A stretch of DNA of 64,000 bases from Azonexus hydrophilus (lineage in GTDB: Bacteria > Pseudomonadota > Gammaproteobacteria > Burkholderiales > Rhodocyclaceae): assembly GCF_905120355.1 (NCBI RefSeq), contig NZ_CAJHOB010000001.1, positions 124,001 through 188,000 of the forward strand, in the 5' to 3' direction. Each line of letters opens with the position of its first letter. The stretch's first letter is position 1. The position numbers and the translations under genes are program-made. Under the pieces are notes generated by a model. The model did no database searches. It was not told the DNA's origin and saw nothing but the letters and a program-made list of their open reading frames with translations. Positions 4-7,480 of this stretch are shown one piece after another.

Positions 4-1359
4 TCAAGGCGCTGGCGGCGGCGGAGGCGGCGGCGTGAATTGCTGCAGCAGGGGCGCCAGCTCGGCAACGTTGGCGAGCAACTCCCACTGACTCATGCCT
101 GCCTTCCAGACATGCACACCGGCATGCAGCTGACCGGCCGCTGCCAGTTGCTGCAACTGGGCCATATTGAAGGGGCCGCTGTTCTGCCCATTGACCGATA
201 CGTGGTAGAGCGCCTGCGGGGGCGGCGGTGGCATGTTGGCAGGATTCATCTGCTGCCCCATAGTGCCCATCATGTTCGCCATCTGCCCGCCCATGGCGCC
301 ACCCAGTGCCATGCCCATCATCATCCCCGCCGGATTCAGGCCGCCATCGCCGCCCCCCTGGCTGCCGCCCCCAAGATCAACCTGCCCCATGCTGCCCAGA
401 TTTTCTGCGGCCGCAGTCAGTACTGCCGTCTGCTGGTTGATCTGGTGTGCCCCCAAGTATTGCTGCTGGGTCTGCAGGGCAGCCAGACGTTCGGCCTGCT
501 CACGCTGGATGCGCAAGGTTTCGCTCATGTTTTCGGCATTGATTGCTTGCGTTGCTTCGAGGTTGCGCATGTTGATCTCGTTCTGTTTCTGGCGCATTGC
601 CGTTTCCAGATCGGCAGTCACTGCACGCAGCTGACGGTATTCCTCGGAATCCTTGTTCGGCTCGATGCTGCTCAGATCGAAGCTGTGCAGGTTCACCCCG
701 AACTGCTCCTGGAATACCTGACTCAGCTGCGGTGTAATCAGGTCATTCACCTCGGCCAGCTTGCGCTCCAGCTGCAGCACGGGCAAACCATGCTCGGCAG
801 GTGCGTTGGCAACAACCTGCTTGACACGGCGCACCACAGCATCGCGCACCAGATCGGCAAAGGCCGAAATTTCGAAATTCACCAGCCGATGCAGGCGAAT
901 GAACGCCCGGTAATCGGTGATGTTCATCCGCAATGAACCCCCGGCGGCCATACGCACCGGGAAATCCAGGGCCCGCGGATCGAACACGTCGAAATAAGGT
1001 ACCCGGAAGTCGATCTTGATGTTCCCGGCCAGGTTGATGAAATACACCTCGGCCTGAAACGGCGAGTCTCCGGCATAGGCCATGCCGAGGATATTTGACA
1101 GCACAGGAAAGTTGGCCGTCCGCAGGGTATCGTCAAACGGGCCCTCGATGAAATCCTGAACTGCCCCACTCTCCTGCTTGTAGACAAAAACGGCCACCTC
1201 GCCGTCCTTGACCCGCAGGCTGCTCCCCCAGCGAATGGCGTTTTCCTTGCGCGTAGCTGCACCGTCACCCGGTCGCCATTTCCAGACCAGATAGGTCGGC
1301 TCATCGCAGCGTATGACGTCAAGCACGCCGCCTTCGTTTTTCTTGCCAAACAAAGCCAT
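4..1359 (-). CDS. SPFH domain protein with C-terminal GYF_2 domain
   Basis: This 451-residue protein has no signal peptide or membrane segment and is probably cytoplasmic, acting at the membrane surface through partners. Residues of about 30-240 read as an SPFH/Band-7 domain of the YdjI type (often named virion core protein-like). A Gln/Glu-rich coiled coil follows (about 245-305), then a Gly/Met-rich linker (about 325-375). A GYF_2 domain with the signature NGQNSGPF and a WKAGMSQW core lies at about 385-435. The tail is polyproline, which GYF modules commonly bind in other proteins. An AGGAG ribosome site sits 6 bases before ATG 1359. It is the last gene of the six-gene minus-strand cluster, and its partner is probably the zinc-ribbon membrane protein just upstream. 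The exact role is unknown. Confidence 0.85.
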   Translation of the reverse strand: MALFGKKNEGGVLDVIRCDEPTYLVWKWRPGDGAATRKENAIRWGSSLRVKDGEVAVFVYKQESGAVQDFIEGPFDDTLRTANFPVLSNILGMAYAGDSPFQAEVYFINLAGNIKIDFRVPYFDVFDPRALDFPVRMAAGGSLRMNITDYRAFIRLHRLVNFEISAFADLVRDAVVRRVKQVVANAPAEHGLPVLQLERKLAEVNDLITPQLSQVFQEQFGVNLHSFDLSSIEPNKDSEEYRQLRAVTADLETAMRQKQNEINMRNLEATQAINAENMSETLRIQREQAERLAALQTQQQYLGAHQINQQTAVLTAAAENLGSMGQVDLGGGSQGGGDGGLNPAGMMMGMALGGAMGGQMANMMGTMGQQMNPANMPPPPPQALYHVSVNGQNSGPFNMAQLQQLAAAGQLHAGVHVWKAGMSQWELLANVAELAPLLQQFTPPPPPPPAP

Positions 1360-1417
1360 GCCAGCTCCTTTTACCGTTGTTCGGTGCGTGCCTGAGGCAC
1401 GTCACACAACATGATCA

Positions 1418-2422
1418 TTAGTCCCTTGCCTGGCGCGTTTCTGCACCACGCCGTGCCCGCTGGGCCAGCTCAGCCTCGGCCCTGGCAATGCGCCGGGCCT
1501 CTGCCTGCGCGGCCACAGCTCGCTGCTGCTCAGCTTCCCGCGCTTTTTCCTGGTCGAGCTCAGCTTGCTGGGCCGCTTTTTCGCGCGCAATCTCGGCCGC
1601 TGCCTGTTCCCGTTCAGCCGCCTGAGCCGCTTCGATACGCGCGGCCAGTGCCTGTCGGCGTGTTTCCCAGGCCGCCGTCTCCTGCGCAACCGCTTCCGCC
1701 TTGCAGGCTTCCTGGTATTGCCAGCGCAACTGCGCCAGTTCAGCCTGGGCCGCAGCGTAGTCCTTCTGTTGCAGCTTGCCGTCAAAAATAGCCACAATGC
1801 TTTCCAGACGCGCCGTTTCAGCCTGGGCAGCGGGTGTATAGGCCGCCGTGCAGCGAGCTTCCTGCCAGCCTTGCCATTGCGTGCTGATCAGACCGACAAC
1901 CGCCAGCACGGCAACCCCGCCAACTAGCAAAAAAAGCATCGGATTACGCCGGGTACGCTCCTTCACCGCCTCGGTAAAACCAAGATTGGCACTGCGCTCA
2001 AGCGCTTCCAGTTCCTCCCGCGTTTTCACGTCGCCACGGTAGGCGTTTCTGGCCAGGTTCATCACCTCGGTGAACTTGACCCGCCAGTCTTCTTCGTTGG
2101 GGTCGCGTTTACCCACCCCTTGCAGTTTGGGCAGGATGAAATGGATCAGACTCAACAGATCTTCGCGCGCATTGGGAATGGGCAGATCGCGGATCACCCG
2201 CGCCCGCCGGGCGCTGACTTCCTTTTCCAGCTTGCTGCCCTGCAGGCCAGCAGCCACCAGCGTAGCCTCAATTTCATTAAATTTATTGACCAGCTCAACC
2301 ACCGTACGATTGGCGCCCACGCCGGTCAGTTCATGACCACACAGCTCGCAGCGTGCGGCAAAGGCTTTCAGCGCGCCACCGCAGCTCGGGCATTTAGGGA
2401 CCACCCCGTTTTGCTCACTCAT
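1418..2422 (-). CDS. zinc-ribbon membrane protein with C-terminal coiled coil
   Basis: The 334-residue product begins with a zinc ribbon (CPSC at 11-14 and CELC at 25-28). A helical cytoplasmic region follows, then one transmembrane helix at about 161-182, then an Ala/Glu/Gln/Arg-rich coiled coil from about 200 to the end. There is no signal peptide. The zinc ribbon plus one membrane helix next to an SPFH gene resembles the Bacillus YdjG/YdjI arrangement, in which membrane partners bring the SPFH protein to the membrane. That parallel is inferred from architecture only. The ribosome site before ATG 2422 is weak. A strong hairpin lies upstream at 2461-2485, so this gene and the SPFH gene may form a separate transcript. 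Confidence 0.75.
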   Translation of the reverse strand: MSEQNGVVPKCPSCGGALKAFAARCELCGHELTGVGANRTVVELVNKFNEIEATLVAAGLQGSKLEKEVSARRARVIRDLPIPNAREDLLSLIHFILPKLQGVGKRDPNEEDWRVKFTEVMNLARNAYRGDVKTREELEALERSANLGFTEAVKERTRRNPMLFLLVGGVAVLAVVGLISTQWQGWQEARCTAAYTPAAQAETARLESIVAIFDGKLQQKDYAAAQAELAQLRWQYQEACKAEAVAQETAAWETRRQALAARIEAAQAAEREQAAAEIAREKAAQQAELDQEKAREAEQQRAVAAQAEARRIARAEAELAQRARRGAETRQARD

Positions 2423-2460
2423 GTTCGCCTACTTTCATTCAGTTCATCATCGCAAAACAA

Positions 2461-2485
2461 ACACCGCCCCGGGCGGGGGCGGTGT
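2461..2485 (-). terminator. hairpin terminator after the CsgG/LpoB-like gene
   Basis: A perfect 10-base GC-rich inverted repeat (ACACCGCCCC at 2461-2470 and its complement at 2476-2485) is followed on the minus strand by a T-rich run, TTTGTTTTG. This fits a Rho-independent terminator for the gene ending at 2501. It separates the LpoB group from the zinc-ribbon/SPFH pair. Confidence 0.75.
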
Positions 2486-2500
2486 CAAGACAGCACCTTT

Positions 2501-3328
2501 TCAACGGAAGATCATCACTTCTTCCTGCCGCGACTGCCCACGCTCCATTACCGTTTCCCGCTGCACCGGAGCTTCTCCCCCCAGCGCCGCGAGCTGCTCC
2601 TCCATCTGGCGGATGACGTCTTCACCCAGACTCTTGGAGACTTCCGACACGACCTTGCCGCGGTTGAGGACAAGGCGGCCGCCGCGTGAAGACATCAGCT
2701 TCACATCACTCCCCTCGCCCATGGCAGAAAAGGCTGCTTTCACTTCGTAGGTCCGGGTACTGATCAGGCTGAACTCTCCCACGAGCTCAAGACTCAGCGT
2801 ATGCGATACGGTGTCGGTATGGTCAATCGGGTTGGCCTCCTGGCGAAACTGGATGTTATTGACCGAACCAAACAGCACGTAATCGGCGCCCGGATACATC
2901 CCCTGCTTGATGCGGGCAATCACGTCGTACAGTTTCTCAGTGTTCTTGGCAGTGAAGGGCTTACCCTGCACCACCTTGAAATACCCCGACTTGACGATCT
3001 CCCCCTTGATATCGGCAGTGAACTTGCGCAGCTCACCCCGCTCGATATAAGAATAGACCCCTTCGTCATAGGAGTAGGTCGACTCCGAACGGGCATTGAG
3101 CGAACCGCTGGCACGACGGGAATAGGAATGATCGCTGTCCCGCTCGCTCTCGCGTGCAGAAGCCCGCAGCGAGGACTTTTCCGTCGCCCGGATCGAACGG
3201 AAATACTCCTGCACCCGTTCCTCATAAGCCAGATCGGTAACGGCCACCTTGAGACTGGGGCCCGCCTGCGCCAGCAGGGTAGCCCCCAGCAAGACACTCC
3301 CGAGCAACGCTTTCTTCAAGATTTGCAT
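2501..3328 (-). CDS. periplasmic CsgG/LpoB-like protein
   Basis: The 275-residue protein has a cleavable signal peptide (about 1-22, ending AQA) with no lipobox cysteine, so it should be soluble in the periplasm. A Ser/Arg/Glu-rich segment (about 45-90) precedes an alpha/beta domain. The segments EIVKSGYFKVVQ and GADYVLFGSVNNIQF resemble the CsgG/LpoB fold, where a short-lived factor domain ends in a G-x-V strand. ATG 3328 has GGGAG about 7 bases upstream. The gene lies 15 bases after the LpoB-like gene, so co-transcription is likely. I recognise the fold type, not a named family. Confidence 0.7.
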   Translation of the reverse strand: MQILKKALLGSVLLGATLLAQAGPSLKVAVTDLAYEERVQEYFRSIRATEKSSLRASARESERDSDHSYSRRASGSLNARSESTYSYDEGVYSYIERGELRKFTADIKGEIVKSGYFKVVQGKPFTAKNTEKLYDVIARIKQGMYPGADYVLFGSVNNIQFRQEANPIDHTDTVSHTLSLELVGEFSLISTRTYEVKAAFSAMGEGSDVKLMSSRGGRLVLNRGKVVSEVSKSLGEDVIRQMEEQLAALGGEAPVQRETVMERGQSRQEEVMIFR

Positions 3329-3343
3329 GATGCGACTCCCGAC

Positions 3344-3955
3344 TCAGCGCTTGGCCGATTTGCGAATTTCCTTCTCGTCCGACCACTCGACGATGCCGCT
3401 TTCGATCTCGATCAGGCGCATGTTGATCTTGTAATAGACATCCTTCATCGAACTGTTGCGCTTGACGATGGAAGACACGCTACCGTCGATCCGGTATTTG
3501 GCCCCCTGCATGTTGCCCATCTTGGCCGTTTTGGATTTCTTGTACAGACCGCTTTGATTCTGGCGACGCAATTCATCCACCTGATTCTGCATGTCTTCGC
3601 CCTCGATCACGTAACGGATACCGTTCTTCTGCAGTTGGGTCAGGATGGTATCGGTAATCAGCCGGGTGTCGAAATATTCGCTGGTCTTGTTCTTTACCGG
3701 CGAGGCCATGAGCAATTCGCGCTTCCTGATGGCGGTCTGAATCACCGGATGCTGGATCATGGACTGGGTCATCTTTTCCGACGTCATCTGGATGTCGGTG
3801 GATCCCAGGTCGGTAGTGACTGCTTCCACCGCTTTGGCATCGCCATAGCTGACACTACCGTCGCCCAGTGTCGGTGAAGTGGTCTGGCAGGCGGACAAGG
3901 AAAAACCAAGCACTGTAGCCAACAACAGGGCACGGGAAGAAGATGCGGATTTCAT
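3344..3955 (-). CDS. lpoB: penicillin-binding protein activator LpoB-like lipoprotein
   Basis: The 203-residue lipoprotein has a lipobox LSAC with the acylated cysteine at residue 23. The body carries the LpoB (YcfM) pattern: conserved VKNKTSEYFDT, TQLQKNGIRYVIEG and GAKYRIDGSVSSI. In Escherichia coli, LpoB is an outer-membrane lipoprotein that reaches through the peptidoglycan to stimulate PBP1b. Length is close to E. coli LpoB. ATG 3955 was chosen over an upstream in-frame start at 3985 because it gives a standard signal peptide. The YcfL-like and COG3014 neighbours upstream match the known ycfL-lpoB neighbourhood. Confidence 0.9.
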   Translation of the reverse strand: MKSASSSRALLLATVLGFSLSACQTTSPTLGDGSVSYGDAKAVEAVTTDLGSTDIQMTSEKMTQSMIQHPVIQTAIRKRELLMASPVKNKTSEYFDTRLITDTILTQLQKNGIRYVIEGEDMQNQVDELRRQNQSGLYKKSKTAKMGNMQGAKYRIDGSVSSIVKRNSSMKDVYYKINMRLIEIESGIVEWSDEKEIRKSAKR

Positions 3956-4056
3956 GAAATACCTTTCAGTCAAACAAATGAACAATCACAACGCACGGCG
4001 AGCATCGGGCAAGCGCCCCCGATCCCCCGGCGAAAAAAAACAGCAAACATTTTGCT

Positions 4057-4494
4057 TCAGCGCCCGGACATACCTTCCATACCGGGGCTGTTGCCGGAAT
4101 AAGGCGCCCCGGCATTTTTCGGACTCTGCAGTTCGATACGGAAGTCCGTCGCCTTGAAACTGGGCGACACGGCATTGATCACTTTTTTCTGCAACCCATA
4201 AACGGTTTCCGGCTTCCAGGGTTCTTCCTCCCAAACCACGAAACCGTCTTCATCCAGCCAGCGGAAACGGTAGTACAGCTGCTGCACATCGCTGCTGCTG
4301 TTCTCCAGAGTGGCCTGGATACGCAGCAGCCCGTCACGTTTGACGGCACGCAAATCCACCACTTTCAAGTACGTCATTTTCCCCAGTTCTTCAACCTTGC
4401 TGGCGATCGTACCGGGCTCAGCCGCCAGAGCCGCAAGCGGCGTCAAGCCAAGAAGGGCGCAGCCGAGCAAGCCACGGATGAGCGTCTGTTTCAT
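4057..4494 (-). CDS. ycfL: YcfL-like (DUF1425) periplasmic protein
   Basis: The 145-residue protein has a signal peptide (about 1-24) without a lipobox, then a DUF1425/YcfL domain. Visible features are LRIQATLENSSSDVQQLYYRF and WLDEDGFVVWEEEPW, a beta-sandwich seen in YcfL of enterobacteria. ATG 4494 is preceded by CTGGAGGTTT, a strong ribosome site, whereas the longer open frame to 4575 lacks one. It stands between the COG3014 lipoprotein and lpoB, as ycfL stands beside lpoB in other Proteobacteria. Its molecular role is unknown. Confidence 0.85.
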   Translation of the reverse strand: MKQTLIRGLLGCALLGLTPLAALAAEPGTIASKVEELGKMTYLKVVDLRAVKRDGLLRIQATLENSSSDVQQLYYRFRWLDEDGFVVWEEEPWKPETVYGLQKKVINAVSPSFKATDFRIELQSPKNAGAPYSGNSPGMEGMSGR

Positions 4495-4586
4495 GAATAA
4501 AACCTCCAGAAAATTTTCCCTAAATACAATGTCGCGGAACAGCAACAGCAGGCTTCCCGCCACCGTGACAATCATTAACCGTCAAG

Positions 4587-6158
4587 CTACTGCGCCGCAG
4601 CACCTGCCTTCTTCGGCGCTTGCTTCGCACCTGCCCGACGCGCCCGCGGCGGCGCCTTGACCGGTTCATCAGTAAACGCGTCGGCCCACGCCTCGATCCG
4701 CGGCTGACCGACATACACCGTGCCATTGGCCAGGCGGATCGGAATCACCGTCACCCGATTACCCACCATCACCTCACCTCGAAACAGGCCATTACCCGTA
4801 TCGAATTCAAGCGCAGCACTCCCCCGTGGCAGAACTGCCCGCGCCACCGCCAGCCGCTCGGGCAACGTTCGCCAGGCACGCTCATCAGCCTGCTCGGTCA
4901 CCACCGAAGCAATGCCGGTGATGATCCCCGCCACTGCTCCGCCTTTTTTCTGCGCCTGGTATTGCAGGGCCGATTTGGCAACTGCACGGACGACAGTGCG
5001 TCCCATGATCCCCGGCAGCTGATCCCTGAGCTGACGCCGGGCCATGGCATCCACATCGACCAGAGTTTCCACCGGATAGTCTTTGCCATTGATGCGCAGC
5101 GCATTCGGCATGTAGCCCTTACCCTCCGACTTGACGATAGGAAAGGATAGTGGCGTTGCGACGAAACGGCCATTTACCGGGATCGGCAAGGGAATGGTGA
5201 CCGACTTCCAGGCCGGCGCAAACCCGCTTTCAACAACGAACAGCACATCGGTCTGCCCCGGGCCAGCGCGCCGGCTGCCTGTCCGCCCGAGTTTTTCCTT
5301 GATCAGCTTGCTATCTGGTTGCAATGCCAGAGCATTGCGATAGCCCGGCTCGGCCATCGACGGCTCGCCGGTGACCTCGAAGAAATAGCCCGCCAGATAA
5401 TGGGCAAAGGCATTCTGGTAACCGTTCTTCAGCCGCCGCACTTCGGGCGCATCAAGTTCGTCGAGTGGATAACCGTGCGCCGACAGATCCTTGGTGTCGG
5501 TCTTGACGCCTTTCTGTTTCTGCTCCTCCTGCAGTTTTTCATACTCCTTCTCGCGGAAGCTCTCGATCAGCTTCTCCCGCTCCACCGTTTTCTTCATCTC
5601 GACCCGAGCGTGGTCGAAATTGCCGAGCAGGATGTGGTCGAGGGCAAGTTTCGCCGACAAAAAGACCTTTTCGTAATCCTGGCCGTCATAGCGGCGGACC
5701 CGGTCACTGACCAGGAAAGCACCGATGTCGCCCAGCAGCTTGGTCGGGTTGGTGCGGTAGTCATCTTCCCAGGTGCGTACGATTTCATCAGCCATCAACC
5801 AGCTGTCGCGACTTCCCTCGTAATCGGTCTTCAAGCTGAGCAGTTCGCCCTTCTCGAAGTAATAGAGGATATCGCGCCCATTGACCGAATCCAGTACGGT
5901 TTTTTCCTTGGCACGTCCTTCCTTGTCCCTGGCCTCATCGGCTGCGAACAAGGGCTTGTTGTTCTTCTCAAGAAGCTGCAGCGCCTGCTCCAGCTGCCCT
6001 CCCTGCACCAGCGCCACCGTCGTACGCATTTCACTATCGTAGCTGCGCAAGGGATTCCCCGCACAGCCCGCCAGCACAAGCAGCCCGGACAGCAAAATGG
6101 GCAGACGGCCCCGTTTAAATAATTTAATGGAATTGTTTGTGCGCACTATAAAACTCAC
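4587..6158 (-). CDS. COG3014 family lipoprotein
   Basis: The 523-residue product has an N-terminal lipoprotein signal with lipobox LAGC (cysteine 32). A helical, TPR-like region (about 40-290) includes a charged segment EKYEKLQEEQKQKG-type coil. A beta-rich C-terminal half (about 300-495) follows, with a basic Ala/Pro/Lys tail. This is the COG3014 architecture, which co-occurs with ycfL and lpoB in several gammaproteobacteria. The function is unknown; the context suggests cell-wall assembly at the outer membrane. The assigned start is GTG 6158 without a clear ribosome site, so the true start could be GTG 6146. Confidence 0.8.
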   Translation of the reverse strand: MSFIVRTNNSIKLFKRGRLPILLSGLLVLAGCAGNPLRSYDSEMRTTVALVQGGQLEQALQLLEKNNKPLFAADEARDKEGRAKEKTVLDSVNGRDILYYFEKGELLSLKTDYEGSRDSWLMADEIVRTWEDDYRTNPTKLLGDIGAFLVSDRVRRYDGQDYEKVFLSAKLALDHILLGNFDHARVEMKKTVEREKLIESFREKEYEKLQEEQKQKGVKTDTKDLSAHGYPLDELDAPEVRRLKNGYQNAFAHYLAGYFFEVTGEPSMAEPGYRNALALQPDSKLIKEKLGRTGSRRAGPGQTDVLFVVESGFAPAWKSVTIPLPIPVNGRFVATPLSFPIVKSEGKGYMPNALRINGKDYPVETLVDVDAMARRQLRDQLPGIMGRTVVRAVAKSALQYQAQKKGGAVAGIITGIASVVTEQADERAWRTLPERLAVARAVLPRGSAALEFDTGNGLFRGEVMVGNRVTVIPIRLANGTVYVGQPRIEAWADAFTDEPVKAPPRARRAGAKQAPKKAGAAAQ

Positions 6159-6337: not shown

Positions 6338-7480
6338 ATGCTGAGTCTGAAACACCTTGCCGCCGCCGCACTGCTGGCCTTGTCAACAATTTGCGCCGCC
6401 GAACCCGGCGTCACCGACACGACCGTCACGCTCGGCATGTCTGCTCCTTTCAGCGGGCCCAACGGCGCTTATGGCGAGGACATGCGGCAGACCATTCAGG
6501 CCTACTTCGGACAACTCAACAAAGCCGGCGGTGTCAATGGCCGCAAGATTGAGCTGATCGCCCTTGATGATGGCTATGAAACCGACCGCGCCCTCGCCAA
6601 CACCAAGACCCTGATCAAGGACAAGCAAGCCTTTGCCCTGCTGGGTTTTTTCGGCACCACCCCCACCGAAGCGACCATGAATACCGTGTTCGGCCCCGCC
6701 GGCGTTCCCCTGGTCGGCACCATCTCCGGCGCGCCCAGCCTGCGCCAGCCAATTTCCAGCAATCCGCATGCGCGTTTCATGTTCCACATTCGTGCCAGCT
6801 ACAACGACGAAACCGAAGCCATCGTCAACCAGATGGTCGCCATCGGCCTGCGTCGCATCGCCGTGTTCTACCAGAACGATGGCTTCGGCAAAGCCGGCCT
6901 GGACGGTGTCACTGCGGCCCTCAAGCGGCACAACCTGACTCCGGCAGCGGTCGCCACCGTCGAACGTAACTCGCTGGATGTCAATACCGCCGTCCAGAGC
7001 GTTGCCAAAGCCAACCCGCAGGCAGTGGTCATGGTCACGTTGTACAAACCCAGCGCTGCCTTCATCCGGGCCATGAAGCAGGCCGGACAACACCCGATGT
7101 TCATGACGCTCTCCCCGGTCGGCACCGAGCAACTGGTCGACACCCTGGGCAATGAGGCCCGTGGCATCGGTATTTCACAAGTCGTTCCCTACCCGTGGAA
7201 TGACACTATTCCGGTCGTGCGCGACTATCAAAAGATTGCGCCCAAGCCCGGCAAATACTCCTATTACGGGCTTGAGGCCTACCTCACCGCGCGTGTCATG
7301 GTGGAAGGACTGCGCCGTGCCGGACGCGACCTGACCCGGGAAAAACTGGTCAGCGCTCTGGAGAGCATCAACAATGTGGATTTCGGTGGTTACCGGGTGA
7401 ATTACTCGACCACCGCCCGCGGTGGTTCGCGCTTTGTTGAAATGACCGTCATCGGCCCAGGCGGTAAGGTATTGCGCTGA
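6338..7480 (+). CDS. ABC transporter substrate-binding protein, branched-chain amino-acid type
   Basis: This 380-residue periplasmic protein belongs to the LivJ/LivK-type (Peripla_BP_6) family. A signal peptide (about 1-20, ending TICA) precedes the mature start EPGVTDTTVTLGMSAPFSGP. The family pattern is clear: G-x-N-A-Y-G-E-D near 45, GRKIELIALDDGYE near 75, and LLGFFGTTPTEA near 110. ATG 6338 has GGGGGAG 9 bases upstream; the longer frame starting at 6173 lacks a signal peptide. No permease or ATPase genes lie nearby, so it is an orphan binding protein. The ligand is unknown. It lies directly upstream of a MocR regulator on the same strand. Confidence 0.88.
   Translation: MLSLKHLAAAALLALSTICAAEPGVTDTTVTLGMSAPFSGPNGAYGEDMRQTIQAYFGQLNKAGGVNGRKIELIALDDGYETDRALANTKTLIKDKQAFALLGFFGTTPTEATMNTVFGPAGVPLVGTISGAPSLRQPISSNPHARFMFHIRASYNDETEAIVNQMVAIGLRRIAVFYQNDGFGKAGLDGVTAALKRHNLTPAAVATVERNSLDVNTAVQSVAKANPQAVVMVTLYKPSAAFIRAMKQAGQHPMFMTLSPVGTEQLVDTLGNEARGIGISQVVPYPWNDTIPVVRDYQKIAPKPGKYSYYGLEAYLTARVMVEGLRRAGRDLTREKLVSALESINNVDFGGYRVNYSTTARGGSRFVEMTVIGPGGKVLR

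Follow-up and report, generated by a model that had tools for sequence, protein, structure and literature searches.

The window analysed here comprises 64,000 nucleotides of Azonexus hydrophilus (contig NZ_CAJHOB010000001.1 of assembly GCF_905120355.1, positions 124,001 to 188,000; the coordinates below follow the numbering of the window) and carries six open reading frames (ORFs), all on the minus strand and all present where a first-pass annotation had described a six-gene envelope cluster. ORF listing and family searches divide them into two modules. Module A, composed of a COG3014-type lipoprotein, YcfL, LpoB and a second LpoB-like protein (LpoB2), is an old operon, and it is kept where PBP1b, the known target of LpoB, was not found. 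Module B is composed of an SPFH-GYF protein and a zinc-ribbon membrane protein, and continues past the window edge with two small genes. The explanation that is tentatively preferred is that these are two functional modules, of which B would be a portable SPFH scaffold, similar to the YdjGHI proteins of Bacillus, coupled to LpoB/CsgG-like envelope proteins, and A would not act on PBP1b. The gene content of the cluster, its conservation and the modular association are well supported.

The family is that of the genome tool used, in which Azonexus sp. GS18 (G010) belongs to the same genus and Propionivibrio limicola (G605) to the same family as the window; the NCBI places the former in Azonexaceae and the latter in Rhodocyclaceae. 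A family sample of 199 genomes and 60 genus members (four shared) gave 255 distinct family genomes, 23 of which bear LpoB. Module B was found in three of the 255, namely the window's genome, Azonexus sp. GS18 and P. limicola, every time directly behind LpoB2 and separated from it by a gap of 78, 82 or 91 bp. The SPFH-GYF and zinc-ribbon genes are thus found with lpoB in related genomes too, contrary to the outcome that would have refuted the first-pass annotation. If the two modules were independent, the chance of all three B copies falling within the LpoB-bearing genomes would be about 6.5e-4, a figure to be read in the light of the relatedness of the genomes. On the other side, module A occurs without B in 20 of the 23 LpoB-bearing genomes, and module B occurs without A throughout the range of named genomes, except in Azonexus GS18 and P. 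limicola. Of the single six-gene system initially proposed, the adjacency of the modules beyond this genome stands, but its unity does not.

The two modules also differ in their phylogeny. A tree of COG3014, YcfL, LpoB and LpoB2 (built from 15 of these 23 genomes plus three outgroups; several branches are weak) did not group the three A copies that precede module B (approximately unbiased (AU) test, p = 1.3e-4). The tree of the SPFH, small GYF and hydrophobic proteins (16 loci, zinc-ribbon protein left out) grouped the three B copies with a support of 100, joining Azonexus with Propionivibrio. This conflict could reflect an old presence followed by many losses, a repeated gain at one spot, or a transfer with partial replacement. 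The same data bear on the possibility, a serious if somewhat doubtful one, that A and B are neighbours and nothing else, B having been dropped once behind A and then inherited or transferred with it as one block of DNA, with separate promoters and separate jobs. The terminator-like hairpin in the gap between the modules (2460..2486, minus strand; L002:14486-14460), which has a stem of 11 pairs and a T-rich tail and matches the terminator annotated earlier at 2461-2485, would agree with such an arrangement; however, the scan, which found 13 terminator-like sites on the window's locus versus 7.2 expected in shuffles, listed none in the gaps of the two relatives, short as well, where inverted repeats without a T run are visible by eye, and it listed no promoter-like site in the window's gap. 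A relative without B has a plain terminator behind LpoB2, as judged by eye. The restriction of B to just three of the 23 LpoB-bearing genomes also speaks for mere neighbourhood, and the single clade of its copies makes a single origin possible, but the corresponding A copies are not a clade, their flanks differ by eye, and module B lies behind exported sets elsewhere too.

Module A is conserved well beyond these three genomes. LpoB was detected at E <= 1e-20 in 21 of the 199 genomes of the family sample; YcfL, LpoB and LpoB2 are adjacent in every one of the 23 LpoB-bearing family genomes, and COG3014 lies upstream of YcfL in all 21 loci with enough contig, those of G637 and G482 stopping at YcfL. 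The genus-and-order sample (100 genomes) gave eight LpoB matches, with COG3014, YcfL and LpoB in order in the seven strong ones, the eighth (G071) being weak and without the triad. LpoB matches were also obtained in 73 of the 369 genomes of the class sample, from which the 16 best loci after the window (L055-L070, E <= 1.4e-24) and the next 13 (L071-L083) were fetched, the remaining 43 being left out: by tblastn, COG3014 was present in 15 and YcfL in 14 of the former, and COG3014-like matches in six and YcfL in none of the latter. Gene calls in the fetched loci derive from simple ORF picking, and their starts and small genes may be wrong.

From a protein perspective, LpoB (3344..3955, minus strand, 203 aa, from an ATG inside the longer ORF 3344-3985) belongs to the PF13036 sequence family in Pfam (143.8 bits versus a cut-off of 22.3) and exceeds the cut-off of the NCBIfam equivalog TIGR02722 (139.5 versus 110.55). 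The motif GFSLSAC near its N-terminus was judged by eye to be part of a signal peptide with a lipobox (LSAC), and a profile built from its relatives matches the solved LpoB of the E. coli/Salmonella type (E 2.6e-11). YcfL, which we take to be a neighbour of lpoB in E. coli as well, is an exported-looking protein of 145 aa (4057..4494, minus strand, starting at an inner ATG of ORF 4057-4575) that matches DUF1425 with 82.3 bits in Pfam. LpoB2 (2501..3328, minus strand, 275 aa) looks exported, has no lipobox and contains a Ser/Arg-rich insert; its PF13036 score of 21.1 bits is slightly below the cut-off of 22.3, its hhalign probability against the LpoB profile is 85%, its structure model, made from three sequences, reached a pLDDT of 35.6, and a sequence search of the PDB returned no match. 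The COG3014-type lipoprotein (4587..6158, minus strand, 523 aa, GTG start, lipobox LAGC by eye) gave only sub-cut-off TPR and other matches in Pfam and NCBIfam, and its name is that of the first-pass annotation, unconfirmed. Among 72,556 plasmid records, carriage of LpoB amounts to two distant matches, one of them in a record of 4.9 Mb.

Regarding module B, the SPFH-GYF protein (4..1359, minus strand, 451 aa) contains Band_7_1 (73.6 bits) and a C-terminal GYF_2 domain (59.6 bits) in Pfam, together with a polyproline tail. This tail, already recognised earlier, proved to be conserved: of the 23 relatives looked at, 22 have PPP among their 40 C-terminal residues, and the remaining one is unreadable. 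The zinc-ribbon protein (1418..2422, minus strand, 334 aa) has a sub-cut-off Pfam match, the ribbon being called from its CxxC pairs (CPSC...CELC), followed by a single clear hydrophobic stretch around residues 162-180 and an Ala/Glu-rich C-terminal tail. Since the ribbon, the single hydrophobic segment and two tail cysteines (C191, C240) are shared by all nine aligned proteins of the proteobacterial type, the window's included, the tail is probably exported and perhaps disulfide-bonded. A rule by which the hydrophobic segment would occur only together with an exported set was discarded, several Bacteroidota loci and Massilia horti having the segment without the set. Past the window edge follow the small GYF protein (L002:11605-11982, 125 aa, GYF_2 61.4 bits), whose start lies 21 bp beyond the stop codon of SPFH, and then a small hydrophobic protein (L002:11267-11608, 113 aa), whose gene overlaps the end of the former; the latter has several hydrophobic segments (four by eye) and gave no match in a Pfam search.

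The genes of module B recur in Bacteroidota and in scattered Proteobacteria. Searching named genomes with the SPFH alignment produced 33 loci, 26 of which were judged to be of the close family; all four genes are in order in the close-family loci outside Bacteroidota that have enough sequence (L084, L086-L091), although L086, a short contig of a Pedosphaera metagenome-assembled genome (MAG), may be a binning error. Among the 18 loci from Bacteroidota, many carry three of the genes or all four. At E <= 1e-60, the window's genome is the sole one with the SPFH family among the 369 genomes of the class sample and again among the 200 of the order sample. Of the 100 genomes of the genus-and-order sample, 58 have some SPFH match, which exceeds 100 bits only in the window's genome and in Azonexus sp. 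GS18. In one locus (L099:7221-8966) a HerA-type ATPase with a C-terminal GYF_2 domain lies between the SPFH-GYF and the small GYF gene, and GYF matches are spaced much as in L099 in three others (L101, L111, L115).

The closest known counterpart of module B is the pspA-ydjGHI operon of B. subtilis, in which YdjI forms membrane foci only with the help of YdjG and YdjH, and cells that lose these two show disturbed wall synthesis under stress (PMC8581546). The analogy drawn earlier with YdjI is apt, an SPFH protein here also standing beside a zinc-ribbon membrane protein (PMC8581546). Like module B, the operon joins an SPFH/Band 7 protein without its own membrane anchor to a zinc-ribbon membrane partner, and a terminator inside the operon is described there too (PMC8581546, PMC9239133). 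Module B differs from it in having a GYF domain and a polyproline tail, in adding the small GYF and small hydrophobic proteins, in the long and probably exported tail of its anchor, with two cysteines, and in its placement behind exported LpoB/CsgG-like sets; moreover, no PspA was recognised by eye among the neighbouring ORFs, no PspA profile search having been made.

On this basis, module A would be an assembly of outer-membrane and periplasmic lipoproteins of the LpoB/CsgG kind, without action on PBP1b in the window's family, and module B would form a portable SPFH scaffold that lies against the inner membrane from the cytoplasmic side and is built along the lines of YdjG/H-YdjI in Bacillus. 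The zinc-ribbon protein would anchor the SPFH oligomer, and the GYF domains and polyproline tails would hold the scaffold together. Where module B stands behind an exported set, the exported tail of the zinc-ribbon protein may touch the LpoB/CsgG-like proteins, a contact that could serve as a trans-envelope tether or as a stress sensor. We infer the topology and oligomerization of module B, as well as its contact with A and the sensing; the physical link through the zinc-ribbon tail is a natural guess.

Module B is not confined to the neighbourhood of LpoB, as it follows a FlgT-like exported set in five other loci, and a third exported set stands beside it in two Bacteroidota loci. The key FlgT-like protein was modelled with a domain of the TolB/PelC/CsgG type (Duganella model against solved structures), and the proteins of Rugamonas, Comamonadaceae and Pedosphaera MAGs are relatives by sequence of the exported protein of Duganella. 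Such likeness to FlgT, PelC, CsgG and TolB-N proteins belongs, however, to the alternative exported set and not to the window's module A, and inspection by eye of the surroundings of the FlgT-like set revealed no genes for flagella, curli or Pel. The LpoB fold match did not rank above unrelated fold rows, which slightly lowers confidence in a scaffold coupled to LpoB/CsgG-like proteins and slightly raises it in mere neighbourhood. No significant similarity emerged when profiles of the FlgT-like and DUF6175 sets were compared with LpoB and LpoB2, and a sequence search of the PDB with the FlgT-like protein gave nothing convincing. Within the FlgT-like set, a number of exported proteins (L167, L170, L171, L086, L090) terminate in acidic residues and Trp (for example DDNW, SDW), and the zinc-ribbon proteins of related lineages end in KW, EW or QW.

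A more general proposal, at present somewhat doubtful, is a trans-envelope scaffold in which a mobile SPFH-GYF/zinc-ribbon module reaches across the periplasm to connect with exchangeable assemblies of the LpoB/CsgG/FlgT-like type. Among these would be one whose LpoB has no PBP1b, either through loss or from the outset, and serves a purpose outside PBP1b activation. An arrangement of this kind was not described in the open-access literature searched, which yielded no mention of COG3014, no joint occurrence of SPFH with LpoB and no text combining three of FlgT, CsgG, LpoB and TolB; the co-mentions of SPFH and GYF domain are off topic as far as their titles and the start of their abstracts go. 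DUF4339 is an earlier designation for the GYF domain of bacteria. The salt-tolerance gene stlA, reached through this name, has no visible tie to the cluster (PMC3861447). The portable SPFH module offers a testable case for the way in which SPFH proteins of bacteria may be linked to the outer envelope.

A different function is suggested by fusions found within module A. In Azonexus GS18, the YcfL encoded between COG3014 and LpoB carries a fused, exported-looking caspase-like domain (Peptidase_C14, PF00656, 108.9 bits; L041:12283-13710, the only such ORF on which Pfam was run), one long ORF spans the caspase and YcfL matches in two further genomes (L138:3360-4742 and L139:7349-8788), and the two matches are in line between COG3014 and LpoB in four more family genomes (L140-L143). 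Together with the HerA-type ATPase beside SPFH in L099, these fusions would fit a conflict or stress-suicide system, in which the LpoB set would sense the envelope and the readout would be, depending on the lineage, a periplasmic caspase or modules of the SPFH-GYF-HerA type. Such a system is improbable, since COG3014 and YcfL lie too close together in the window to leave space for a caspase, the HerA-GYF protein is confirmed at a single locus, and PADLOC matched only two of the six proteins, both weakly and below threshold (the zinc-ribbon protein with LmuB at E 0.033, LpoB with Cas4_II at E 0.0066), by which a defence system was rejected as well. Behind LpoB2 of G658, on the opposite strand, lie two ORFs (L139:2750-5326), of which one resembles by eye a membrane protein of the CHASE2 type and the other a FecR-like protein.

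With respect to PBP1b, the LpoB of E. coli docks onto the UB2H domain of this enzyme (PMC3060616, PMC6220978). The window's LpoB resembles it in its equivalog score and lipobox; by contrast, the window's operon adds a second LpoB-like protein and the COG3014 lipoprotein, and the searches found in the window's genome neither a PBP1b over the cut-off nor a full UB2H. None of the 23 LpoB-bearing family genomes has a match over the cut-off of the PBP_1b model (best 226 bits versus 717.75). The UB2H profile matched in 162 of the 199 family genomes, over the cut-off in 67, but among the matches listed, which do not extend to the weakest, all lie within positions 1 to 43 of the 85 of the model and most sit in ORFs of >1000 aa; the one in the window's genome, the only one identified individually, is Mfd. 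In other families, PBP_1b is over the cut-off in nine of 16 LpoB-bearing genomes, with partial high-scoring matches in two more, and UB2H is nearly full-length in 11 of the 16; COG3014 is still beside LpoB in the five without a full UB2H (G395, G170, G313, G300, G158). The first-pass annotation's route, by which LpoB would activate PBP1b here and the SPFH scaffold would organise wall synthesis with it, could appeal to the equivalog score, to the wall defects of Bacillus lacking YdjG/YdjH under stress (PMC8581546) and to the 67 genomes over the UB2H cut-off, but it is very improbable because no PBP1b over the cut-off occurs in the 23 genomes and the listed UB2H matches cover half of the domain at most. 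COG3014-YcfL-LpoB would thus have a role other than PBP1b activation in the window's family, and the annotation of LpoB as PBP1b activator can mislead, the operon being kept where PBP1b was not found.

At the borders of the cluster, the 113-aa gene is followed by a strong terminator-like site and then by convergent dnaJ, dnaK and grpE (these three named by eye). On the other side, divergent from COG3014, the plus-strand ORF 6339-7480 encodes what by eye is a periplasmic branched-chain amino-acid binding protein.
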